Shown here: positions 18,009 through 35,437 of the stretch, piece by piece
Layout: every line of letters begins with the position of its first letter
Numbering within the stretch: position 1 is the first letter of the stretch
From: Cryomorphaceae bacterium
Lineage (GTDB): Bacteria > Bacteroidota > Bacteroidia > Flavobacteriales > Flavobacteriaceae
Reading direction: 5' to 3'
DNA: 40,426 bases
Assembly (NCBI GenBank): GCA_003331875.1
Contig: QOQA01000013.1
Span: forward strand, 1-40,426
Made by a program: the position numbers and the translations under genes
The notes under the pieces: generated by a model
The model's database searches: none
Told to the model about the DNA's origin: nothing
What the model saw: the letters and a program-made list of their open reading frames with translations, nothing else

Positions 18009-19130
18009 TTAATCAAAAGCATATGATAGGCCTACTCTAAGCGTATTTTCAAGTGGACTAATGACATCAGAAGTTGAAATCAAATAAGACATATCAATCT
18101 TTAAATCATTAGTAATGAAACCCGCTCCAGCTGTAATAAATTTTCTTGATCCTTTTAGTTCGTGTTCACTAAAATATCCGGATCTTAAAAAGAAGGATTC
18201 ATTAAATGAATATTCTAATCCGATTGAATAAGTTAACTCCTTCAACTCTTCGCTAAAACCATCAGGCGCATCGTTAAATGATTTGAATAATCCAGATAAA
18301 AAGCTGATGTCTGGCTGTCTGTATGCAATTAAATCTCCGGATGAATTGTATACTTCTTCACTTGGTGTGGGCACAAGTAGTTTATTAATTTCAAAAGTAG
18401 CTGATAAGCTATTATTACTATCAAAAATAAATTCATATCCAGCACCTAGTCTCAGGTTTGTTGGTATAAAACTTTCATTACCTTGCTCCGCATACTTCAT
18501 TTTAGGTCCAAGGTTAGAAATATTAAATCCTGCTCTCCAAATTCCTTCAGAACCACCAGTTTGAACAATATCTGATTGGTAATAACCTGAAATATCAACG
18601 GCCACTGAGGATGCTGCTTCAGTCTCATCACCAAGTGACTGAATTTTAACGTCAGAGAGTAAAAACCTACCGGAAACAGCCATAGAAAAGTTTTCACTCA
18701 ACTTCAATGAGTATGCTGCATCTAAAGTAAATTCGTTAGGGTTTTCAACAATTGGTATATCAAGTGGATTTTGTAGTATATCAATATCACCAAGATTAAA
18801 GTATTTTAAACTAGCGCTCCAAGCTGATCTATCAGATATTTTGTTGTAATAAGAAATATTTGCAAGAAATACATCATTGACCAATTTACTTAAATAAGGC
18901 GTATAACTAAATCCAACTCCTCCTCCTTTTTCGCTAAAAACATATTTAGCAGGATTCCAATGTTGGGAAAAGTTATCCATTGGTGTTGCTACACCTTGTT
19001 CTCCCATTCCTGCAGCCCTAGCATCTGATGCAATCATTAGAAAGGGTACAGCTGTTGTGATAACCCTTCTTTCCTGAGAATAGCTATTAAACATTAGCAA
19101 TGAAAAGATCAATATGAAAATTTTTCTCAT
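18009..19130 (-). CDS. porV: Type IX secretion system outer membrane protein PorV (LptO)
   Basis: A 373-residue FadL-like beta-barrel. After a signal peptide (about 1-18, ending YSQ) it has the PorV hallmark ITTAVPFLMIASDARAAGMG, then VATPMDNFSQHWNPAKYVF. Many amphipathic strands follow, and the protein ends in an aromatic-rich strand (VGLSYAFD). PorV shuttles T9SS substrates from the SprA translocon to the attachment complex, where PorU removes the C-terminal domain and the cargo is anchored. Here the upstream neighbours are the collagen-like fibre and a CTD protein rather than porU. The gap to the fibre gene is 19 bases, suggesting co-transcription. Confidence 0.93.
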   Translation of the reverse strand: MRKIFILIFSLLMFNSYSQERRVITTAVPFLMIASDARAAGMGEQGVATPMDNFSQHWNPAKYVFSEKGGGVGFSYTPYLSKLVNDVFLANISYYNKISDRSAWSASLKYFNLGDIDILQNPLDIPIVENPNEFTLDAAYSLKLSENFSMAVSGRFLLSDVKIQSLGDETEAASSVAVDISGYYQSDIVQTGGSEGIWRAGFNISNLGPKMKYAEQGNESFIPTNLRLGAGYEFIFDSNNSLSATFEINKLLVPTPSEEVYNSSGDLIAYRQPDISFLSGLFKSFNDAPDGFSEELKELTYSIGLEYSFNESFFLRSGYFSEHELKGSRKFITAGAGFITNDLKIDMSYLISTSDVISPLENTLRVGLSYAFD

Positions 19131-19149
19131 AGTTTATTTTTTAAGTAAT

Positions 19150-21660
19150 TTACTTTTTTAATTCCTCGATTTCAGCTTTTAATTTCTCAATTTCTTCATT
19201 AAGTTCTTGAACAGCTTTAATTAATGGAACGACTAATTTAGAGTATTCAACACCCATAGAATCTTCATCAGTTATTGCTTTATGAACAATTTGATTTTCG
19301 ATTTGCATTTCAGAATTAACTTTTTCGATATCTTGAGCAATCAAACCAATTTGTAAAGTTGAATCTCCAGAGTAGGAATCCTTCCAATAATAAGAAACTG
19401 GATTTAATTTTAATATATATGACAAACCATAGTCTAATGGTCTTATAAAATCTTTAAGTTTTAAATCTGATGATTCTGAGTAAGCTGCAGCATATACTGT
19501 TGCACCTTTGTCTTCTGCTGCCCATAATTCAGTCATATCCTCATTACCAATAATTGCATAATTATTTTTTGCATTAGTACCAGGACCCACATTTCCTCCA
19601 ATAAAAATTCTATTATTAGCACCAGCGTTGGAAGCCGCAGGGTTTGCATTGTGACCGATCATAATATTATTATTTCCACTTTTAACATATCTTCCAGAAG
19701 CATGACCAATAAAAACATTACTCGCACCTGTAGTTATTTGTCTTCCCGCGTTATAACCAACAGTAGTATTTTGATTACCGGATGTCATATCTGTTTTTGT
19801 AGTACCACCTTCCATCAAACCAAGTCTTGTATTTTTTAATCCTGTTGAGTTTTGTGAGGAAATGTCACCAACTAATATGCTTGTAGTACTGGAAAAACCA
19901 TCTGTTAAATCATTAACAGCACCAGCAACCCCAGAAGCACCGTCAGCTCCATCAGCACCGTCGGCTCCATCAGCTCCAGCAGCACCAGTATCACCTTTTG
20001 GACCTTGTGCTCCAGTTGCACCTGTTTCACCTTGTGGACCTTGTGCTCCAGTTGCTCCTGTTTCACCTTTTTGACCAATTTCAGTTCCATCAGTTAAATA
20101 ATACTTAGCTGCATATACTACAGCCGCCTTATCACCTGCCATCCAAACCTCTTCAACTGAACTATTTCCTAAAACAACAGTCTTATTTTTTGTGGCTTGC
20201 GCCCCCGCTCCAATCGCAGTTCTGTTAATTGATCCAGCTAAATTCGTACTGGCATTGTGACCAATTAGGGTATTTGAAGTTCCACCAATGAGCTCATCAC
20301 CAGCAGTATTACCAACTGCAGTATTAAAGCTTCCGTTTGTAACAAGCTTTAATGCATCTTTTCCAATTCCTGTATTTGATGAGCCAATTTTAGCGGCACC
20401 TAAAGAATTATATCCAACTGCAGTGTTATTGTCACCTGTTGTGATCGCATCAAGTGATGTTACACCAACTGAAAGGTTAAAATTTGCAGCATTAGTCGTT
20501 GAAGATGGATCATTACCTACATAAAGAGAGTTACTCTCAGACAAAACATCATCTAATCCAAGAAGTGTAGAAGATCCACTACTACCACTTCCTGTAGCAG
20601 CAGTTGTCATTGAGGTTCCATCAGCGAAAGCAATTCCCTTCAAATATACAGTAGCTCCTTGGTCTTGCGCCATATAAACCTTGCTAACATTTGCATTACC
20701 AATTGTTACAACATTATCACCATCAACACCAACAGCGCTTGGACCAATAACAACTTGGCCTCTGGCACTATTAGAACCAGCCTGAGCATTATATCCTAAC
20801 AATACATTATTATTTCCAGTTGTAAGATTTGATCCAGCAGACATACCAACAGCAACATTGTTGTTAGCATTTGAGTTTTTCAATGCACTATGACCAACTG
20901 CAACTGATCTTAGACCTGATGTTGAACTGGTTAGAGCATTAAAACCAATAGCAACCGTATCGTCAACATTACTGGCTGCGTCTAGAGCATTAATACCTAC
21001 AGCAACATTGGTGTTTGAGCCCTGAGAGTTTGATTCAGGATCACTACCACCATTAATCCAAACACCGTTTGAGTAGGTACTAACATCACTCAAATCATTA
21101 AGCGCACTTGCACCACCTGATCCAGCAGGTCCAGTTTCACCTTGTGGACCCTGTGCTCCAGTTGCTCCAGTTGCTCCTGTATCACCTTTTGGTCCTTGTG
21201 CTCCAGTTGCTCCAGCAGGTCCAGCAGGTCCAGCAGGTCCAGCAGGTCCAGCAGGTCCAGCAGCACCATCTTTTGCATTTAGAGCATACAATGCGTATGG
21301 AACAGGCAGTAATTCGCTTTCCGTTGTAACCGAGTAGTTAAATCCGTCTAACACAGTGATAGTTGCACTAACATAATGCTTGCCAGATCCCCAGTCAATG
21401 GCTGAAAATGCAGATAGATTTTTTGATCCAAGTCTTAGACTAACAAGACCGTTTTTACTTGTTGTTGCCAAATGAGACTCAGAATAAACAGTGGCTCCAT
21501 TGCTTGTTATTGCCAAATCAATTTCAACATCTGTACTTACAACTAAATTACCATTTGCATATCTTACGATACTCTGATACGAAAGATCCTGAGATATCTG
21601 CGAATATGAAAAGGATGAAAATAAAGTTATGAATGATAAAAAGGTTAATAGTTTTTTCAT
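19150..21660 (-). CDS. Collagen-like, YadA-head-like surface fibre with S74 intramolecular chaperone domain
   Basis: An 836-residue secreted modular protein. A signal peptide (1-21, ending SYSQ) is followed by a small beta domain common in Bacteroidota (to about 130, ending LLPVPYALYALNAKDG). Gly-X-Y block 1 is at 132-183 (17 triplets). Head module 1 is at about 184-364, with VAVG-type repeats such as NNNVAVGMSAGSNLTTG. Head module 2 is at about 365-528, block 2 at 529-582 (18 triplets), and head module 3 at about 583-729. The C-terminal S74 domain runs 730-836 and carries SDLKLK (Ser731, Lys736), matching the SDxxLK processing dyad, plus LIAQDIEKV and a terminal coiled coil. The S74 family trimerises fibres and then cleaves itself off. 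The protein is probably a trimeric adhesin or stalk. It has no T9SS CTD of its own, so its export route is unclear. Confidence 0.88.
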   Translation of the reverse strand: MKKLLTFLSFITLFSSFSYSQISQDLSYQSIVRYANGNLVVSTDVEIDLAITSNGATVYSESHLATTSKNGLVSLRLGSKNLSAFSAIDWGSGKHYVSATITVLDGFNYSVTTESELLPVPYALYALNAKDGAAGPAGPAGPAGPAGPAGATGAQGPKGDTGATGATGAQGPQGETGPAGSGGASALNDLSDVSTYSNGVWINGGSDPESNSQGSNTNVAVGINALDAASNVDDTVAIGFNALTSSTSGLRSVAVGHSALKNSNANNNVAVGMSAGSNLTTGNNNVLLGYNAQAGSNSARGQVVIGPSAVGVDGDNVVTIGNANVSKVYMAQDQGATVYLKGIAFADGTSMTTAATGSGSSGSSTLLGLDDVLSESNSLYVGNDPSSTTNAANFNLSVGVTSLDAITTGDNNTAVGYNSLGAAKIGSSNTGIGKDALKLVTNGSFNTAVGNTAGDELIGGTSNTLIGHNASTNLAGSINRTAIGAGAQATKNKTVVLGNSSVEEVWMAGDKAAVVYAAKYYLTDGTEIGQKGETGATGAQGPQGETGATGAQGPKGDTGAAGADGADGADGADGASGVAGAVNDLTDGFSSTTSILVGDISSQNSTGLKNTRLGLMEGGTTKTDMTSGNQNTTVGYNAGRQITTGASNVFIGHASGRYVKSGNNNIMIGHNANPAASNAGANNRIFIGGNVGPGTNAKNNYAIIGNEDMTELWAAEDKGATVYAAAYSESSDLKLKDFIRPLDYGLSYILKLNPVSYYWKDSYSGDSTLQIGLIAQDIEKVNSEMQIENQIVHKAITDEDSMGVEYSKLVVPLIKAVQELNEEIEKLKAEIEELKK
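19915..20076 (-). repeat. Collagen-like Gly-X-Y block 2 (18 triplets)
   Basis: This in-frame block encodes 18 Gly-X-Y triplets (residues 529-582 of the fibre): GET/GAT/GAQ/GPQ/GPK/GDT followed by a run of four GAD triplets. The GAD part is a degenerate 9-bp repeat with varied third codon positions. The upstream portion shares long near-identical stretches with block 1 at 21112-21267. Confidence 0.9.
21112..21267 (-). repeat. Collagen-like Gly-X-Y block 1 (17 triplets)
   Basis: This in-frame block encodes 17 Gly-X-Y triplets (residues 132-183 of the fibre). It opens with GAA and five GPA triplets, then GAT/GAQ/GPK/GDT/GET. Charged triplets such as GPKGDT and GPQGET are typical stabilisers of bacterial triple helices that lack hydroxyproline. 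Confidence 0.9.
21211..21264 (-). repeat. 9-bp minisatellite TCCAGCAGG, about six copies
   Basis: Read on the + strand, five exact copies of TCCAGCAGG start at 21211, 21220, 21229, 21238 and 21247. A sixth copy at 21256 differs only in its last base. On the coding strand it encodes (Gly-Pro-Ala)n. The unit length keeps the reading frame, so copy-number change would lengthen or shorten the triple helix without breaking the protein. Confidence 0.92.
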
Positions 21661-21669
21661 TTTAAAAAA

Positions 21670-22134
21670 TTAGTATTTAATTATTTTGATTGTTTTATTA
21701 AGTTTTTCCTGTTTGAATATGTGAACAAAATATACGCCATTGGCTAATGTTGAAACATCTAAAGGATATGGGTTTGAATCAATTATTCCCTCTGTAATAT
21801 ATGCTCCAGCGACAGAGCTAACTGAATAGCTAAGTGCTCCAATATCGTCGATACCAAGTGATATAAACACCCTATTGGTGGTCGGGTTTGGATAGGCCTT
21901 TAAAGAAATGAAATCAAATTCGATTACGTCGCCATCGACATAGAAAGATTGTAATATACCTTCTTTGTAAGAAATATTATTAGAGGTGTTTTTATAAAAA
22001 ATTTGTCCTAGAGAGTAATCAACGTCTAAAGAAGTTGTATTTGAGGAGGTACCTCCACTTGCAACAAATCCACTTTGGGAAAAAGCGCTAAAAATACAAA
22101 AAGAGAATAACACAGATATCATAAGTTTTTCCAT
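21670..22134 (-). CDS. Small secreted protein with T9SS type A sorting domain
   Basis: A 154-residue protein with a signal peptide (1-20, ending AFSQ). A short beta-rich region (about 21-70) has the pattern VASGGTSSNTTSLDVDYSLG followed by QIFYKNT and KEGILQSFYV, seen in small Bacteroidota CTD proteins. The type A C-terminal sorting domain (about 79-154) has AYPNPTTNRVFISL, LDVSTLANGVYFVHI and a terminal KIIKY. T9SS substrates carry this CTD, which PorU normally removes on anchoring. Here the cargo is only about 55 residues, so the protein is nearly all sorting signal. It starts the minus-strand unit that continues (9-base gap) into the collagen-like fibre and then porV. Its role is unknown. 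Confidence 0.82.
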   Translation of the reverse strand: MEKLMISVLFSFCIFSAFSQSGFVASGGTSSNTTSLDVDYSLGQIFYKNTSNNISYKEGILQSFYVDGDVIEFDFISLKAYPNPTTNRVFISLGIDDIGALSYSVSSVAGAYITEGIIDSNPYPLDVSTLANGVYFVHIFKQEKLNKTIKIIKY

Positions 22135-22303
22135 ATTAATATATTCTGAAAATTAATTTTTTGGTTGTTTTCCAAGTTATGAATTATTTAAAAACAAACA
22201 AAAATTTGCCTGCACATTTTACTTGAGGCACATTTCTTGTACTATAAATTATGTGTATAAATTTTAAAGTAATTTCGATTCTTTATATATTTACGACCAG
22301 CGT
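22135..22303. other. Divergent intergenic region between the CTD gene and gldJ
   Basis: These 169 bases are the longest gene-free stretch in the window and must hold promoters for both directions. Leftward, TAACTTGG (plus-strand 22172-22179) with TTTG (plus-strand CAAA at 22199-22202) 19 bases away is a one-mismatch candidate. Rightward, CTTG at 22236-22239 with TAAATTTT at 22258-22265, 18 bases apart, is a one-mismatch candidate, and TATATTTA lies at 22286-22293. A TGCCT/AGGCA inverted repeat surrounds part of 22208-22230. I see no RNA gene or open frame. Confidence 0.4.
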
Positions 22304-23923
22304 ATGAAAAAATTAAATTTTTTAATTCTACTATTTACAGTCCTTTTAGTAATTGGATGTAACAGAAATAGCATGAAGGGAAGTGGTAAAAATTCGTCAT
22401 CTGCCACAGGGTGGAGTATAAATGATAAAGACGGTGGTGGTTTTTCATACAACAAAAAATATAAAGGGCAAATATCCGCACCTGGTATGGTATTTATTCA
22501 AGGTGGAACTTTTGTAAAGGGCAATGCCAAGGATAATGTTTTAAATGATTGGAATAATACACCAACACAACAATATGTACGTTCATTTTTTATGGATGAA
22601 ACTGAAGTTACAAATGTGATGTACCGTGAATACCTTTTCTGGTTAAAGAAGAAATTTTATAAATCAGATTCTGAAGAAATAAAGAACATCTATTTTGCTG
22701 CATTACCTGATACTCTTGTTTGGAGGAATCCCTTAGGATTTAATGAAGACATGGTCAATAATTACCTCAGACATCCTGCTTTTAATAATCATCCTGTAGT
22801 GGGTGTTTCGTGGGTACAAGCACAAAACTTTTCAAAGTGGAGAACAAACAGAGTCAACGAGAAAATTTTATTAGACAAAGGCTTTTTAAACGAAGAAGCT
22901 TTGAAAGAATTACATAATGACTCGACTAACGTTTATGGATTTAATACACTTAGTTATTTAGTTAGTCCTAAATCTTCATACGGTGGAAATTTAGAAAATC
23001 TTATTGAGGGTACAGTTTCTGCAGATGCAGAAAACCCTGAGTTCGTTTCTATTGAAACTGGATTATTGGTTCCAACTTACAGACTTCCCACAGAATCTGA
23101 GTGGGAATATGCAGCTTTAGGATTAGAGGAATTAAGAGAAGGTAATTTATACAGAGGAAAGAAAAAGTTTCCTTGGTCTGGTGAGTATACTAGATCACAG
23201 CAAAAAAAGACGCTTGGTGATCAACTAGCTAACTTCAAACTTGGAAGAGGTGATTATGGTGGAATTGCGGGTTGGTCTGAAGAAGGAAGTGGAATCACTA
23301 CAAGTAGCATGGCTTATCCTCCAAACAGTTTTGGTTTATATGGTATGGCGGGAAACGTTTCAGAATGGGTTGCTGATGTTTACAGACCCATAATTGACGA
23401 GGAAGCTAATGATTTTAATTATTACAGAGGAAATGTTTACTCCAAACCTCAAATTACTAGAGACGGAAAAATTACAACAATAGATCGAGAAAATTTCAAG
23501 GATCAATTTCAAGTAATGGAAAATGGTCGTCTAAAAATATTTAAGCTACCAGGTGAGATTGCCTCTGAAGATCTCACGGAAGATGATCTTAGAAGAATTA
23601 ACTATACCAGGGCTGAAAACAGAGATTTTCAAGATGGTGATAATGAATCCACAAGAGAGTTTGCTAGCAGTAGTAATAATTTAAATAGACCTATGTATAG
23701 CGATCCTACTTTAACAAAATCTTCATCTACAAAAAGATTGACACTAATTAGTAATGAAGCTAGGGTATACAAAGGCGGTTCTTGGCTTGACAGATCATAC
23801 TATTTGGATCCCGCGCAAAGAAGATTCTATCCTGAGTATTTTGCAACAAACTTCATTGGTTTTAGAAATGCTATGTCTTACATGGGTGAAGATAGGAATC
23901 AAACAAAGCCCAAAAGAAGGTAA
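22304..23923 (+). CDS. gldJ: Gliding motility lipoprotein GldJ
   Basis: A 539-residue outer-membrane lipoprotein of the gliding/T9SS machinery. Lipidation is expected at Cys19 in LLVIGCN. Two separated parts of an FGE-sulfatase fold are visible: PGMVFIQGGTFVKGN with FFMDETEVTNVMYREY near the N-terminus, then YRLPTESEWEYAALG, GLYGMAGNVSEWVADVYRP and KGGSWLD, ending in IGFRNAMSYMGEDR. The long insert between fold parts and the C-terminal basic tail fit GldJ rather than GldK. In F. johnsoniae GldJ stabilises GldK and is required for secretion and gliding. The porV-containing unit is divergent from it across 22135-22303. Confidence 0.93.
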   Translation: MKKLNFLILLFTVLLVIGCNRNSMKGSGKNSSSATGWSINDKDGGGFSYNKKYKGQISAPGMVFIQGGTFVKGNAKDNVLNDWNNTPTQQYVRSFFMDETEVTNVMYREYLFWLKKKFYKSDSEEIKNIYFAALPDTLVWRNPLGFNEDMVNNYLRHPAFNNHPVVGVSWVQAQNFSKWRTNRVNEKILLDKGFLNEEALKELHNDSTNVYGFNTLSYLVSPKSSYGGNLENLIEGTVSADAENPEFVSIETGLLVPTYRLPTESEWEYAALGLEELREGNLYRGKKKFPWSGEYTRSQQKKTLGDQLANFKLGRGDYGGIAGWSEEGSGITTSSMAYPPNSFGLYGMAGNVSEWVADVYRPIIDEEANDFNYYRGNVYSKPQITRDGKITTIDRENFKDQFQVMENGRLKIFKLPGEIASEDLTEDDLRRINYTRAENRDFQDGDNESTREFASSSNNLNRPMYSDPTLTKSSSTKRLTLISNEARVYKGGSWLDRSYYLDPAQRRFYPEYFATNFIGFRNAMSYMGEDRNQTKPKRR

Positions 23924-29781: not shown

Positions 29782-30888
29782 ATGAAAAGAACAATCATTT
29801 CAGTAGTTGCAGGATTAATATTACTAATTATTACATATTTTCTTTCCGGTTTGATTATGAGCTCTGGAGATAAAATAGTTGCCAAAGCGGTTAGTGCAGA
29901 GGAAAACGTAAAAGTAACAAGTGTCAAAAATTCAACCAACGATGCTACATTGAATCTAAATTCAATTGTTCAATCCGAAAATAAATTGCAATTAATTTCT
30001 GAGGTTACTGGAATAATAGACTTTACAAATATCAGGTTTAAAAAAGGTCAAAGATTTAAAAAAGGTCAGACAATTATAAAAATTAACTCTGATGAAGCTG
30101 AAGCATTTTTGAGGCAAAGCAGAAGTCAATTTCAAAATCAAATTGCGTCTGTGTTAGCAGATATTAAGATTGATTATCCAGAGAGCTATCAAAAGTGGGA
30201 AGAATATTTTCTAAACTATGATATAGAAAGTGATATAGCAGAATTACCAAAACAAAGCACAAATAATGAGACCTTCTTTTTAACAGGCAGGGGTATAATT
30301 TCAAGCTATTACGGAGTGAAGTCATCCGAGGAAAGATTAAATAAGTACAATATCGTTGCCCCTTTTGATGGTGTTGTTTCAAGTTCCTTCGTTGAAAATG
30401 GAACTATGGCAAGAGCAGGTTTGGTTCTTGGTGAATTTATTAATAGTGATTCATTTGAAATTGAAGTTGATATTCCGTCCGAATATAAATCTTACATAAT
30501 TAAGGATAAAGAGGTTTACATAAAGTTATCTGACGGAAGCAGTGTTAATGGAAAAATTAACCGAATTAATAATAATGTAAATAGAGAAACACAAACTGTA
30601 AGTGTTTTTGTAAAAAGTAATTCCAAAAAACTAAGTGATGGAATGTATGTTGATTTAATTTTATCTCTAAAATCATTTGATAATTCGTTTAAAATTTCTA
30701 GATCAATGATTAAGAATGATTCGATTGTACACACAGTTAAGTCAATGGCTGTCAAAAACAAAATAGTTAATCCAGAGTTTTATGGTGATAATTATGCTAT
30801 TGTCACTGGTCTTGATGATGGTGACTTGGTTATCCAAACACAAATTCCTGAAATCTTTGAAGGAATGAAAGTCAAAATCATGGATTAA
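29782..30888 (+). CDS. RND efflux periplasmic adaptor (HlyD/MFP family)
   Basis: A 368-residue membrane fusion protein. Residues 6-26 form an N-terminal hydrophobic anchor with no lipobox. The first biotinyl-lipoyl-like half is around LISEVTGIIDFTNIRFKKGQ. A helical hairpin follows (DEAEAFLRQSRSQFQNQIAS). The second half is IVAPFDGVVSSSFVENGTMA, and beta-barrel and membrane-proximal domains follow. It joins the inner-membrane pump to the TolC-like channel across the periplasm. It is the first of three genes, with a 2-base gap to the permease. The substrate is unknown. Confidence 0.88.
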   Translation: MKRTIISVVAGLILLIITYFLSGLIMSSGDKIVAKAVSAEENVKVTSVKNSTNDATLNLNSIVQSENKLQLISEVTGIIDFTNIRFKKGQRFKKGQTIIKINSDEAEAFLRQSRSQFQNQIASVLADIKIDYPESYQKWEEYFLNYDIESDIAELPKQSTNNETFFLTGRGIISSYYGVKSSEERLNKYNIVAPFDGVVSSSFVENGTMARAGLVLGEFINSDSFEIEVDIPSEYKSYIIKDKEVYIKLSDGSSVNGKINRINNNVNRETQTVSVFVKSNSKKLSDGMYVDLILSLKSFDNSFKISRSMIKNDSIVHTVKSMAVKNKIVNPEFYGDNYAIVTGLDDGDLVIQTQIPEIFEGMKVKIMD

Positions 30889-30890
30889 CA

Positions 30891-33800
30891 GTGAGAAGAT
30901 TAATCACCTATTTTGTTAATTATCCAAAAGCAGTAAATATTCTTGTCCTATTTTTTATTGTCTTTGGAACCGCAGGTACACTAGCTTTAAAATCGTCTTT
31001 TTACCCATTAATTGACCCTAAATTTATTGAAATCAGCGCTGTACTGCCAGGTGCCTCGCCTGAGGAAGTTGAAGAGGGTATTGTAATGAAGATTGAAGAA
31101 AACCTCAAAGGAATTGCTGGCGTTGACAGGTATTATTCAGCATCAAGAGAAAATATTGGTATCGTTTTGGTTGAAACTCTTGAGGATTCTGACGTTGATA
31201 ATGTTTTAATCGATGTAAAGAATGCTGTAGATAAAGTTCCCTCTTTTCCATTAAATCTTGAACCAATTGTTGTAAAAAAAATGGAACAACAAGAGCCTAC
31301 TTTTATTTTTTCATTGACAGCAGAAAATATTGGTTTGAGTTCGTTAAAAAATATTTCTAAAAAAATTGAGGTTGACTTAAGAAATCTAGATGGTATATCG
31401 CAGATATCCACATCAGGGTTTTCTGACAATGAAATTGAAATTTCTGTAAATGAAAGATTATTATCAAAATACGACCTAACCTTTTATGAAATTCTAGATG
31501 CAATTCAGAGAAGTAACATAATTGTCAGTGGTGGAACTATTAAAACCAATTCAGAAAAATTTTTAATAAGATCAAACAATAAAAATTATTACTCAAACCA
31601 ACTTAATGAAATTGTCGTGAAATCCTTTCCGTCAGGAACTAATTTAAAATTAGGTGATGTTGCCAATGTTTATGAAAAGTTCTCAGATGATGAGCCTCAG
31701 TTAAAGTTTATTGACAATAAGTCTTCTGTAATAATGACTGTTTTAAGTACAAAAAACGAAGACCTTTTAGAATCAGCCGATAAAATCAGACAATACATGG
31801 ATGACTTCAATGATAAGAATGAAAATATTCAACTTATAAAGTTAAAAGATTACTCTGAAGTTTTAAGGCAAAGAACCAATTTACTACTTGAAAATGGTGG
31901 TTTAGGTATTCTTTTAGTTTTAGGATTGTTGTCACTTTTTTTGAATACAAGGTTAGCTTTTTGGGTTGCTTTTGGTCTGCCTATATCTTTTCTTGGAATG
32001 CTAATATTTGCTGGAAACTTTAACATAACAATTAATATCATGTCTCTGTTTGGGATGATTGTTGTGATTGGTATTTTGGTTGATGATGCGATCGTAATTG
32101 CTGAAAACATTTACAAGCATTATGAAAGTGGAAAGTCAGCAGCAGATTCAGCTGTTGATGGTACACTAGAGGTATTACCAGCTATTGTTTCTGCAATTAT
32201 CACGACGATTATATCCTTTGCAACATTACTATTATTGGCTGGTGATGTGGGTAATTTCTTTGGGGAGGTTGCCATGATTGTAATCATAACCTTAATAGTT
32301 TCACTTATTGAAGCATTAATCATTTTGCCATCACATTTAGCTCATTCAAATGCTCTTAAAAGGAAAAAAGAAGATAAGAATGGGGTGCTTTTCACATTTT
32401 TTTCAACGATGAAAAAACTAAACCAAAGGGGATACAGAGTTATGGACTGGCTTAGAGATAAAATTTACACTCCAATGTTAAGGTTTGGATTGGAATATAG
32501 ATTTCTTAGTCTAAGTGGTTTTATAGCTGCACTCATGTTAACAGTAAGTTCAGTTTTTGGTGGTATAATACCCATGACATTTTTCCCTACAATTGCTAGT
32601 GATTTTGTAACGGTTGATCTAAAAATGCCAATGGGTACTAGTACAAAAGTTACAGATTCAATCATTAATGTCATCGAAAAAAATGCAATCATTGCCGGAA
32701 ATGAACTTCAAGAAAAGTACATGAATGGTGATGATAGAAAACTCATTCAAAACATTCAAAAAAATATAGGAAATTATGCAGACAATCTAGAAATGGTAGC
32801 TGGAGTGGGCAACATTGAAGGTTCAAGTGTAGCGTCATTGGAAATATACATGTTAGACAGCGAGGAGAGAACTCAAGATATCCAATCATCGATGCTTGCC
32901 TCACTAATTAGAGAAAAGACCGGAACAATTCCTGGAGCGGAAAAATTTATTATTAATGATGGTGCTAATTTTGGAGGGAGTCCTGTTGCAATTTCTCTGT
33001 TGAGTAACAATAAGTCTGATTTAAAAAATGCAAAAAATGATTTGATTGAAAATTTAAAATCGAACCCGGTTTTGGTAGATATCGCTCACAATGATCCACA
33101 AGGTTTCAAAGAAATTGATATTAAATTAAAGGAAAATGCCTACGCCCTAGGTCTAAGTTTTCAAACAGTCATGACTCAGGTTAGGTCTGCATTCTTTGGT
33201 CTAGAAGCTCAAAGAATACAACGAGGAAATGAGGATATAAAACTTTGGATTAGGTATGACGAGTCAAGTAGATCAGAAATTAATAATCTAGATAACATGA
33301 AAATCGTTACACCCACTGGTAGAAAAGTTTTTTTGAAAGAAATTGCAAATTTTTCAATAAATCGTGGTGATGTAGCAATAAATCATTTAGATGGCAAAAG
33401 AGAAATTAAGATAACAGCAAATTTGATTGATCCCAATCAAAGTGCATCAGATGCAGTATTTGGTATCCAACAAAGCATTATACCAATAATTGAAGAAAAA
33501 TACCCGACTATTGAAACTTCTTTTGAGGGTCAATACAGGGAAGCCAACAAAACAATACAATCTTCAAAGGTTGTTTTCCCTTTAGCATTGTTTTTAATTT
33601 TCTGTGTTATCGGATTTATATTTAGAACATACAGTCAACCATTTTTACTTTTATTATTAATCCCCTTCAGTTTAACAACGGTAGCATGGGGGCATTTGGT
33701 TCATGGATTCCCTGTAAATGTTATTTCACTTTTAGGTGTGATTGCATTGGTTGGTATTTTAGTAAATGACGGGCTAGTTTTAATATCAAAATTTAATTCA

Positions 33801-34133
33801 AACCTTAGATCGGGTAAAAGTTATGATGAATCATTATTTGGAGCAGGTAAAGAAAGATTTAGAGCAATCTTTTTAACCTCAATAACTACAATGGCTGGAT
33901 TGGCACCGATAATATTTGAAAAAAGCTTTCAAGCACAATTATTGAAACCGATGGCAATATCCATTGCTTATGGAATTGGCTACGCAACTTTTCTGACCTT
34001 AATATTACTGCCAATACTGCTATCATTAACCAATACACTCAAGTTAAATTTTGTTTGGTTAAAAAGTGGAATCAAATTAGATAAAAGAGATGTTGAGGCA
34101 CCAGTCATAGAAATAAATAGAGAAAAGAAATGA
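30891..34133 (+). CDS. RND family efflux permease
   Basis: A 1080-residue inner-membrane proton-driven pump of the AcrB type. It starts with GTG. TM1 is at about 13-33, followed by a large periplasmic loop with VLPGASPEEVEEGI. The TM4 region has GMIVVIGILVDDAIVIAENI, where Asp398-Asp399 correspond to the proton-relay aspartates of AcrB. A second periplasmic loop precedes TM7-12, which contain VALVGILVNDGLVLISK in the symmetric helix. The sequence fits the HAE/hydrophobe-type branch, but no specific drug or substrate can be assigned. The stop overlaps the TolC-like gene start as ATGA. Confidence 0.92.
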   Translation: MRRLITYFVNYPKAVNILVLFFIVFGTAGTLALKSSFYPLIDPKFIEISAVLPGASPEEVEEGIVMKIEENLKGIAGVDRYYSASRENIGIVLVETLEDSDVDNVLIDVKNAVDKVPSFPLNLEPIVVKKMEQQEPTFIFSLTAENIGLSSLKNISKKIEVDLRNLDGISQISTSGFSDNEIEISVNERLLSKYDLTFYEILDAIQRSNIIVSGGTIKTNSEKFLIRSNNKNYYSNQLNEIVVKSFPSGTNLKLGDVANVYEKFSDDEPQLKFIDNKSSVIMTVLSTKNEDLLESADKIRQYMDDFNDKNENIQLIKLKDYSEVLRQRTNLLLENGGLGILLVLGLLSLFLNTRLAFWVAFGLPISFLGMLIFAGNFNITINIMSLFGMIVVIGILVDDAIVIAENIYKHYESGKSAADSAVDGTLEVLPAIVSAIITTIISFATLLLLAGDVGNFFGEVAMIVIITLIVSLIEALIILPSHLAHSNALKRKKEDKNGVLFTFFSTMKKLNQRGYRVMDWLRDKIYTPMLRFGLEYRFLSLSGFIAALMLTVSSVFGGIIPMTFFPTIASDFVTVDLKMPMGTSTKVTDSIINVIEKNAIIAGNELQEKYMNGDDRKLIQNIQKNIGNYADNLEMVAGVGNIEGSSVASLEIYMLDSEERTQDIQSSMLASLIREKTGTIPGAEKFIINDGANFGGSPVAISLLSNNKSDLKNAKNDLIENLKSNPVLVDIAHNDPQGFKEIDIKLKENAYALGLSFQTVMTQVRSAFFGLEAQRIQRGNEDIKLWIRYDESSRSEINNLDNMKIVTPTGRKVFLKEIANFSINRGDVAINHLDGKREIKITANLIDPNQSASDAVFGIQQSIIPIIEEKYPTIETSFEGQYREANKTIQSSKVVFPLALFLIFCVIGFIFRTYSQPFLLLLLIPFSLTTVAWGHLVHGFPVNVISLLGVIALVGILVNDGLVLISKFNSNLRSGKSYDESLFGAGKERFRAIFLTSITTMAGLAPIIFEKSFQAQLLKPMAISIAYGIGYATFLTLILLPILLSLTNTLKLNFVWLKSGIKLDKRDVEAPVIEINREKK

Positions 34134-35437
34134 GAAAATTAGTATATATATTATTGTTTTTTTCCAACTTAAGCTTTGCTCAAGAAGTTCTTACAACAGA
34201 TATGGCTGTAAAACTGACACTTGAAAATAATCTTGACATAAAGGTTAGTAAGAATGTCTTAGAAATCTCAAAAAATAATTCTTCAATTTTAAATAGTGAT
34301 TATTTACCTACAATTAATGCAACATCAAGTGTATCTAGAGCTCAGGGAGATGTTAAGGTTAAAACCAATCAAGGTATATCCGCTAAAATTAATGATACCA
34401 GTAATGATGAAAGTTTTGCTAGTGTCAACATCGTATATAACATAGTTGATGGTAGAGGAAGAAAGTATAATTATCAAAAATCAAAAGAACTTTATAGTAG
34501 GACAGAGCTTGAAGTAAGAGAAATTATTGAAAATACACTTCTCCAACTTTTTACAGTATATTTTGATTTTGCTAGATTAACTAGAGAAAAGGAAATATTA
34601 AAGAACACCCTAGGTATTTCTATTCAAAGATTAGAAAGGGTTAAAACAAAATATAAATTTGGTCAATCTACTTCTATAGAGGTTTCGAGTGCTCAGGTAG
34701 ATAAAAATACAGATAGTTTAAACTATTTGAACATAATTAAGGTTCTTTCAAATACCAAAAGAGACCTTAACTTGATTATGAACATTGATTTAGAATCAGA
34801 TTTTGAAGTAGTTGAGGATATTGAATTTACAGACGAAAAAGAGACTGAAGACTTTTTTAATGCAGGACTAAGCAATAACACAATGTTCCAGATATTGGAT
34901 AAAGATGTTGAAATTTCAAATTTAGAGTTAAAAGCAATAAAATCAACCTATTTACCAACGGTACAATTAAGAGGATCTTATGGGTGGAATGAAACAATTG
35001 ATGAAATTGCCTACAATCCAGTCAATGAGTTTTCTTCCAAAGGGGTCTCAACTGGAGTTAATATTTCAATACCAATTTTTGATGGTGGAAAAAGAATTAC
35101 TGCAACTAAAAATGCAAGAATAAATTTGGAAAATTCCTTGATTCAAAAAAACAAAAGTGAACTTGAAATAATCAAAAATATAAGAAACGCATACGAAACT
35201 TATAAAAACAATTTATTCCTTTTACAAATTCAAGAAAAAAGCTATCAAACAAGCAAATTGTCATTTTCAAAGTTTGAGGAAAAATACTCCCTTGGTCTGG
35301 TTTCCTCGTTGGAATTTAGACAGGCACAAACTAATTTATTGAGAGCAGAACTTTTACTCAACAGCTCTTTGTTTGAATCTAAAATTTCTGAGCTTGTTTT
35401 CTTAAAGCTCACAGGAAAAATAGTTGATAATTATTAA
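34130..35437 (+). CDS. TolC family outer-membrane efflux channel
   Basis: A 435-residue TolC-like protein with a signal peptide (1-17, ending SFAQ). The internal duplication typical of the family is visible: the first half has TDMAVKLTLENNLDIKVSKN and LPTINATSSVSRA, and the second has NLELKAIKSTYLPTVQLRGS and ISIPIFDGGKRITATKNARI. The C-terminal helices include SSLEFRQAQTNLLRAELLLN. It completes the tripartite efflux pump encoded by the two preceding genes. It ends one base before the convergent MoxR-like gene's stop. Confidence 0.92.
   Translation: MRKLVYILLFFSNLSFAQEVLTTDMAVKLTLENNLDIKVSKNVLEISKNNSSILNSDYLPTINATSSVSRAQGDVKVKTNQGISAKINDTSNDESFASVNIVYNIVDGRGRKYNYQKSKELYSRTELEVREIIENTLLQLFTVYFDFARLTREKEILKNTLGISIQRLERVKTKYKFGQSTSIEVSSAQVDKNTDSLNYLNIIKVLSNTKRDLNLIMNIDLESDFEVVEDIEFTDEKETEDFFNAGLSNNTMFQILDKDVEISNLELKAIKSTYLPTVQLRGSYGWNETIDEIAYNPVNEFSSKGVSTGVNISIPIFDGGKRITATKNARINLENSLIQKNKSELEIIKNIRNAYETYKNNLFLLQIQEKSYQTSKLSFSKFEEKYSLGLVSSLEFRQAQTNLLRAELLLNSSLFESKISELVFLKLTGKIVDNY

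Follow-up and report, generated by a model that had tools for sequence, protein, structure and literature searches.

In the type IX secretion system (T9SS) of Porphyromonas gingivalis, PorU is described as a protein with a type A C-terminal domain (CTD) whose gene stands close upstream, in the region of the porV operon, and that sits with this domain on the barrel PorV (PMC10202324, PMC5562754). A related arrangement is reported for SprB-SprF and PG1035-PorP, in which an adhesin and its barrel anchor are encoded close together and the CTD is held on a PorV-like barrel (PMC9143113, PMC12618676). The MAT fibres of Bdellovibrio bacteriovorus are mosaic fibres with a shared N-terminal domain, an S74 subfamily, and a conserved cell-proximal and a variable outer end (PMC10769870), and two PorU-less Flavobacteriaceae isolates, Aa_F7 and DN50, have gldJ beside genes annotated as hypothetical (PMC7440613). 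Here we analyse a locus that resembles each of these in part. It lies in a 40,426-nucleotide stretch, hereafter the window, comprising positions 1 to 40,426 of the forward strand of contig QOQA01000013.1 (assembly GCA_003331875.1) of a Cryomorphaceae bacterium that GTDB places in the Flavobacteriaceae. In it, a 154-residue protein with a type A CTD (here CTD154) and a collagen-like fibre with an N-terminal domain that we call FibN are encoded between porV and gldJ, in the place that porU occupies in PorU-positive relatives.

Unlike PorU, CTD154 has no matched peptidase domain, is separated from porV by the fibre gene and comes from a genome in which no PorU was found; moreover, the PorV model, which served as an indirect probe for PorQ, gives no PorQ-like second match in the genus. 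In contrast to SprB-SprF and PG1035-PorP, the CTD is of type A, the fibre itself is devoid of a CTD, so that the anchor would act in trans, and the barrel is PorV and not PorP. The fibre shares with the MAT fibres an N-terminal domain related at the level of sequence models, a mosaic build, a cell-proximal end that is conserved, an outer end that varies and the S74 subfamily, but it scores below the MAT_N cut-off, contains collagen segments and has a T9SS CTD partner gene next door. Aa_F7 and DN50 belong to other lineages, and no fibre module is mentioned in the available text of PMC7440613. The absence of PorU has already been published for these two isolates; the larger result here is that a CTD protein, usually a short one, and a FibN fibre form a gene pair that recurs across the Bacteroidota. 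This pairing was not found in our searches of the open-access literature (one library; titles and abstract starts). We infer that the locus is a vacated porU slot that was entered by a surface-fibre module of the Bacteroidota.

Gene content between porV and gldJ

The features of the locus are as follows.

18009..19130, minus strand: porV, 373 residues, the T9SS outer-membrane shuttle barrel for type A CTD substrates (NF033710, 504.1 bits against a cut-off of 250, E 2.4e-151; PF19572).
19131..22303, no strand: the porU slot between porV and gldJ, holding porU in PorU-positive relatives, empty in most PorU-negative ones and holding the fibre module in part of the genus.
19150..21660, minus strand: the fibre, 836 residues (PF01391, 63 bits, cut-off 27.2; PF13884, 42.3 bits, cut-off 22).
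19309..19470, minus strand: Peptidase_S74 (chaperone-of-endosialidase) domain of the fibre, residues 731-784, the PF13884 match.
19918..20076, minus strand: collagen segment 2, residues 529-581, the best PF01391 stretch.
19980..21240, no strand: head cassette flanked by the two collagen segments; here the window's genome (G000) and its relative G005 share 90-100% identity in each 60-base bin, and identity then falls to 65-83% down to 19321.
21100..21273, minus strand: collagen segment 1, residues ~130-187, from an NCBIfam collagen-like adhesin model (stretch 130-187) and Gly-X-Y repeats seen by eye.
21277..21660, minus strand: FibN, residues 1-128 of the fibre, from an alignment of homologues (A3), a relative of the Bdellovibrio MAT N-domain model NF053851.
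21670..22134, minus strand: CTD154, a short T9SS type A CTD protein and proposed fibre anchor (TIGR04183, 37.9 bits, cut-off 23; PF18962, 37.9 bits, cut-off 27; orthologues in alignment A2).
22304..23923, plus strand: gldJ, 539 residues, divergent, at the far edge of the slot (TIGR03524, 636.5 bits, cut-off 458).

Open reading frames (ORFs) and profile matches bear out the arrangement described in an earlier note on this DNA, in which the CTD protein, the fibre and porV follow one another on the minus strand with gaps of 9 bases (21661-21669) and 19 bases (19131-19149), divergent from gldJ. The porV product falls under the PorV equivalog model NF033710, and CTD154, which passes both curated cut-offs, carries the sorting domain of T9SS type A substrates; it consists of a signal-like stretch, an N-terminal part with a YSxGQ motif, over which no Pfam or NCBIfam model reached its cut-off, and the CTD at residues 80-153. 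The fibre carries the S74 domain that marks one subfamily of the MAT fibre superfamily and runs from a signal-like N-terminus (by eye) through FibN, collagen segment 1, head repeats, collagen segment 2, a third segment and the S74 domain to a coiled-coil-like end (by eye). Searches of Pfam and NCBIfam up to E 1 gave no match of the fibre to type A, B or C CTD models; the type B model TIGR04131 matched neither the fibre nor CTD154, and neither is assigned to the SprB-like type B adhesins. Likewise, no autotransporter barrel or membrane anchor was matched up to E 1, and the fibre is not assigned to the trimeric autotransporter adhesins; its signal-like stretch has no Cys at its end and no lipobox by eye, and S74 is the only peptidase family matched in either protein.

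The model NF053851 gave 27.7 bits (E 2e-6) on FibN of the window and 23 bits on the whole protein, below its cut-off of 60, and the domain is not assigned to the MAT N-domain family. However, the model matched 14 of 15 FibN homologues, and its best E value among them, 9.3e-13, supports homology of the two domains. No Pfam model matched FibN of the window, and Big_1 was matched weakly in seven of the 15 homologues (best E 3.1e-5). The data throughout are draft genomes, with some loci cut by contig ends, and single-chain structure models. AlphaFold2 predicted FibN with a mean pLDDT of 76.4 and with residues 31-110 at 83-94 in blocks of ten; a fold search against the PDB returned nothing at E<=0.001, with weak beta-sandwich matches down to E 8.8e-3.

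Collagen segments and S74 domains are common in phage tail fibres. The fibre might thus be a tail fibre of a phage or injection system, as part or remnant of a prophage, yet a tblastn search of 50,697 phage records with FibN of the window returned nothing at E 0.01, the ORFs nearby do not look phage-like by eye, and the fibre begins with what resembles a signal peptide. We reject a phage origin as exceedingly improbable.

Co-expression of the fibre and CTD154 with porV is plausible from the spacing of the genes. Promoter-like sites (15 against 17.4 in shuffled sequence) and terminator-like sites (4 against 2.4) were not clearly above the shuffles and were absent from the two gaps, the TTTG/TAnnTTTG pattern occurred three times against 4.06 in shuffles, and an Rfam search returned no match.

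A CTD protein and a FibN fibre as a recurrent pair

A search with the genus alignment of CTD154 returned short, full-length relatives from further genera and also from other families. Ten of 13 chosen short relatives are encoded directly before a FibN gene, one is adjacent to it in the other order (G052), one is separated from it by a single gene (G023) and the last has no FibN gene nearby (G047). When FibN was used as the query, 19 of 26 relatives' loci had a CTD protein immediately upstream (a longer one in L269 and L275), and in three it was separated by one gene, following the fibre or preceding a tandem fibre; not counted were L282, which lacks a FibN ORF, and L283-L285, which are second loci of genomes in the set. 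The CTD/FibN locus sets share genomes, as the 80 named loci described below overlap with the other genomes used here, and tallies are not summed unless stated.

Across the phylum, FibN was found at E 1e-8 in 83 of 392 Bacteroidota genomes drawn, with 10 candidates scored per genome, by which some FibN may escape. The best locus of each FibN genome was judged, except L325 (contig start) and L348 (no FibN ORF), and in 56 of these 81 loci the gene immediately before the fibre or fibre tandem encodes a CTD protein: both of the window and G023, 25 of 28 in a second batch and 29 of 51 in the last. The upstream proteins of the last batch comprise 28 of ~160-245 residues and one of 829 (L368). Looser members of the 56 have gaps of 100-290 bases (L333, L340, L344, L353, L364) or weak or partial CTD matches (L350, L353, L365). 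In four more loci the CTD protein is one gene away (L345, N-terminal part only; L347, L351, L352), and in L361 a 629-residue protein that matches the N-terminal part lies 671 bases from the fibre. With strong FibN matches (E<=1e-24) the CTD protein is immediately upstream in 48 of 57 loci.

An automatic count over the earlier locus sets gave a CTD neighbour upstream of 25/30 and 19/29 FibN genes, whereas among the controls it was found upstream of 7/1247 other ORFs in porV neighbourhoods and 3/83 other ORFs in FibN loci. The gap between the two genes is -4 to 26 bases in 39 of 44 cases, and all ten short proteins tested passed TIGR04183. The only plasmid record with FibN is pAUEa of Aureispira anguillae, in which a gene independently annotated as 'T9SS type A sorting domain-containing protein' ends 3 bases before the FibN gene. 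On the same plasmid (L315, 7261-10427) the pair adjoins a recombinase-family gene, a hint of mobility of the module. A second conserved place of the pair was seen in genus members and G026 (L243-L246, L248), directly after a 152-155-residue gene, with a divergent gene with an HGYxM-type start beyond.

FibN was found together with the secretion system. SprA is present in 319 of the 392 genomes, including all 83 with FibN, and FibN was found in none of the 73 SprA-less ones (Fisher p 3.5e-9, ignoring kinship). This bears on the possibility that the fibre has its own way out of the cell and that the short CTD protein is an accessory, such as a cap, lectin or regulator, kept in the operon for dosage. 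By eye the N-terminus of the fibre is of the Sec type, the fibre lacks a CTD, no CTD protein stands immediately upstream in 25 of the 81 judged phylum loci, and the related MAT fibres are displayed on the surface of Bdellovibrio, with the surface-binding element, or cell-side attachment, named as open by their authors (PMC10769870). On the other hand, no other known outer-membrane route is visible, since neither an autotransporter barrel nor a lipobox was seen, and FibN is missing from the SprA-less genomes. We therefore regard a separate route as rather unlikely.

A genome of the same order, G047, forms a single contig of 1.9 Mb in which PorU was not matched but FibN was matched 32 times, often in clusters. 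It has two PorV matches over the cut-off and, genome-wide, one type A CTD match, which is of the CTD154 kind; the one CTD154-like protein found has a YSLGQ motif and no FibN gene in the surrounding 13 kb. One adaptor may serve many fibres in this genome. As a fibre-rich relative, it merits a study of its own (L250, L277).

Loss of PorU and the order of events

The earlier note had found no peptidase C25 (PorU) motif between gldJ and porV, and profile searches of Pfam and NCBIfam found none either; the order gldJ, porU, porV that it gave for Flavobacterium johnsoniae agrees with PMC7440613. The search for porU elsewhere in the genome that the note proposed also came back empty. PF01364 had no match across the draft (1.08 Mb, 74.9% complete), and NF033707 gave nothing over its cut-off, with one 22-bit scrap at the CTD end of the model. 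PF01364 likewise matched none of 23 genus genomes, and the weak genus matches of NF033707, none over the cut-off, all lie at its CTD end (position 984 on). As PorV was retained in 21 and SprA in 18 of these 23 genomes, incompleteness is not the cause of the missing PorU. A relocated porU, which would make the locus a simple rearrangement, is accordingly unlikely and was rejected: no relative searched that shares this order keeps an intact porU elsewhere. With no porU in the draft genome or the 22 genus relatives searched, no PorU sortase was found that would remove the CTD of CTD154.

In the family as a whole, C25 was matched in 198 of 299 Flavobacteriaceae genomes, two of them weakly (G159, G206), and not in the other 101 (by genus, present in 135/204 and absent from 69/204); these genomes are >=90% complete, except the window's own. 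PorV was over the cut-off in 78 of 80 PorU-less family genomes tested. Absence of PorU with PorV kept is thus common in the family. In the textbook account, type A T9SS substrates are cut by PorU and linked to lipopolysaccharide; as about a third of the sampled Flavobacteriaceae have no C25 match and nearly all of those tested keep PorV, this fate is unlikely there. Type A CTD matches number 34, 12 and 13 in the PorU-less genomes G023, G029 and G033. In Aa_F7 and DN50, both PorU and PorQ were reported missing in 2020, PorQ giving only weak matches (PMC7440613). Second matches of the PorV model are weak in our PorU-positive genomes.

The state of the slot was then compared among relatives. In PorU-positive ones, porV and porU are followed by divergent gldJ and murF (L068-L072), with one extra gene before gldJ in L071. 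Among 80 named loci, 47 have PorU in the slot, 26 have gldJ straight after porV, one (L074) has a fibre and a CTD protein, four have a fibre running to the contig end (one also with a CTD protein), one is cut and one has a 75-residue ORF only. Of 96 further PorU-less genomes, 16 were outside the PorV test, and of the 78 with PorV, 60 were fetched, one per genus: the slot is empty in 51, holds only ORFs of 70-150 residues, several overlapping their neighbours, in eight, and has other genes next to porV in the remaining one (L211). Since PorU adjoined PorV on the same contig in all 26 PorU-positive genomes examined for both, an empty slot is a reasonable indicator that PorU is absent, and it is the common PorU-less state. 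Cultured species with an empty slot, the rest of whose genomes was not searched for porU, include Salinimicrobium marinum, S. nanhaiense, S. xinjiangense, Aquimarina mytili and Allomuricauda zhangzhouensis.

In a tree of PorV and PdhA (42 rows; IQ-TREE, quick settings), the 31 rows whose slot lacks porU group as one clade (support 99); L060 and L083 are a single sequence in this tree. The ten sister rows of the clade, nine of them distinct, all have an empty slot, and the 21 genus rows (support 100) comprise ten with the fibre, ten with an empty slot and one, G019, with another CTD protein (L055, 8496-12060: a different 751-residue T9SS CTD protein, Por_Secre_tail 27.7 bits with cut-off 27, and a 362-residue gene). 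Fibre presence requires at least four changes on this tree. The locus is cut by contig ends in G009, G012, G014, G006, G021 and G011, the last of which has no PorV match and carries a CTD protein and a fibre beside gldJ (L254). A FastTree analysis of 144 PorV and GldJ rows, restricted to non-duplicate rows that have the two genes, gave nine changes of PorU state, seven forced by starred branches; with its long-branch warnings, it was not used for placing single losses. Because the slot is empty in the sister rows and in about half of the genus rows, porU appears to have gone first, and the fibre to have come, or come and gone, later, a direction that is read from the distribution and the tree. 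In a separate observation, a 160-residue gene lies between pdhA and porV in L059, L061, L068, L069 and L071; it is missing in the window's genus, where pdhA and porV are ~40-90 bases apart.

These results divide the suggestion of the earlier note that a fibre and a T9SS substrate had been placed in the secretion locus or had replaced porU there. The synteny comparison that it called for upholds the placement: porU stands in the slot of PorU-positive relatives, and here it is missing and the module is present. Replacement of porU by the fibre does not hold, and a one-step substitution was rejected, as PorU is absent from all 23 genus genomes and an empty slot is found in the ten sister rows, in ten genus rows and in most PorU-less genomes of the family. 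A functional form of this idea, in which the fibre and CTD154 have become the new sortase or peptidase of the attachment complex in place of PorU, can point to their position and to the self-cutting of S74 domains. It is very improbable, because 59 of the 60 PorU-less genomes have only a gap or tiny ORFs in the slot, so that no replacement is needed there, and no peptidase family except S74 was matched, which in the MAT example acts on its own chain (PMC10769870).

It is a serious possibility, if not quite a probable one, that the pair is real while its place beside porV is incidental, an empty gap having taken up a fibre cassette whose functional link to PorV is that of T9SS substrates in general. 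This is compatible with the proposed role of the pair itself. Genus members with an empty slot can have the pair at another locus (L243, L245, L246), in other genera the pair was seen elsewhere, and ten genus members have nothing in the slot; by contrast, the same-strand spacing of fibre and porV is tight, 18-47 bases, in the ten genus genomes with a fibre there, and the unrelated CTD protein in the slot of G019 suggests that proteins with a CTD may be favoured at this position.

Mosaic structure of the locus

Among named relatives, PorV is closest to that of the uncultured Bacteroidetes assemblies AG-903-E05 (99%), AG-900-K16 (95%) and AG-891-J21 (95%). In one genome triple (G000, G005, G007), the PorV and GldJ flanks of the window and G005 are 98% identical, with CTD154 at 65% and FibN at 73%. 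G005 and G007 share 90% identity in CTD154 and 94% in FibN, and the rest of the G007 fibre is at 51-63% DNA identity in intervals over 21300-19201. Informative sites switch at 22200-22140, near the start of CTD154 at 22134, and at 21300-21240, the border of FibN and collagen. The head of G000 and G005 (21240-19980) contains a 360-base identical aligned run and is more similar than the flanks (~85-96% per 200 bases). The switch points and the identity pattern indicate that CTD154 and FibN were exchanged together, as a block separate from that of the head, which suggests that collagen segments may serve as recombination joints and that CTD154 and FibN may be co-adapted.

Elsewhere in the window (29782-35437), three plus-strand genes of 368, 1080 and 435 residues resemble, by eye, an operon for RND efflux that includes an outer-membrane factor.

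Discussion

Our analysis points to a loss of porU before the genus arose and to a two-gene module, a short YSxGQ-CTD protein and a FibN fibre, in the slot of about half of the genus; we hold both of these points with high confidence. Both proteins would reach the periplasm by Sec, judging from their signal-like N-termini. CTD154 would be exported by the T9SS through SprA and taken up by PorV, as is established for type A substrates; without PorU cleavage its CTD would stay on PorV, like the uncleaved CTD of PorU itself in P. gingivalis, and the YSxGQ part would hold the N-domain of the CTD-less fibre trimer, so that the fibre stands on the cell. The S74 domain may aid trimerisation and trim itself, and the mosaic pattern is consistent with heads being swapped by recombination near the collagen segments, CTD154 and FibN perhaps moving together.

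In P. gingivalis porU mutants, PorV-bound type A substrates are reported to build up (PMC5562754). PorU stays on PorV with its CTD uncut, PorZ also retains its CTD (PMC10202324), and type B adhesins stay on PorP/SprF barrels (PMC9143113, PMC12618676). From these precedents, CTD154 would stay on PorV in a PorU-less cell. By this analogy, T9SS export of CTD154, its retention on PorV and the holding of the fibre by the YSxGQ part form a tentative proposal, whose chances we place slightly on the doubtful side.

Several observations weigh against this reading. A CTD protein is missing near FibN in G027, G030, G047 and G056 of the relatives' loci, in 17 of the last 51 phylum loci and in L296, L297 and L300, and with weak FibN matches (E>1e-24) it is immediately upstream in only 8 of 24. 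The association with SprA is not free of kinship, as 14 of 20 listed SprA-less genomes, of the 73, belong to one family (f32). The pair also occurs in PorU-positive genomes and away from porV, and therefore neither PorU loss nor porV adjacency is required for it. In the PorU-positive F. johnsoniae, type A substrates are described as anchored or released, with PorV thought to be recycled (PMC12618676), which speaks against a lasting PorV anchor. As the T9SS is described as exclusive to Bacteroidota (PMC12618676), the related domain in Bdellovibrio implies that such a domain can be displayed without it. The single-chain AlphaFold2 model of CTD154 is poor, with residues 1-78 under 50, and the block exchange of CTD154 and FibN could come from the linkage of adjacent genes alone.

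In its most general form, the proposal would make the YSxGQ-CTD protein an adaptor that binds the N-domain of CTD-less trimeric fibres, brings about their T9SS export in trans and leaves them on PorV, or on lipopolysaccharide where PorU exists. We consider this generalization unlikely, though worth stating for its consequences. The gene order kept across the phylum offers a concrete candidate partner for the cell-side attachment of this class of surface fibres. Cultured slot-empty species exist (Salinimicrobium, Aquimarina mytili, Allomuricauda zhangzhouensis), which makes the fate of type A substrates in the absence of PorU accessible to work on cultures. If the adaptor reading is true, the T9SS would offer a route for cargo without a secretion signal of its own, one adaptor could serve many fibres, and the shuttle PorV would be a permanent anchor in PorU-less lineages.

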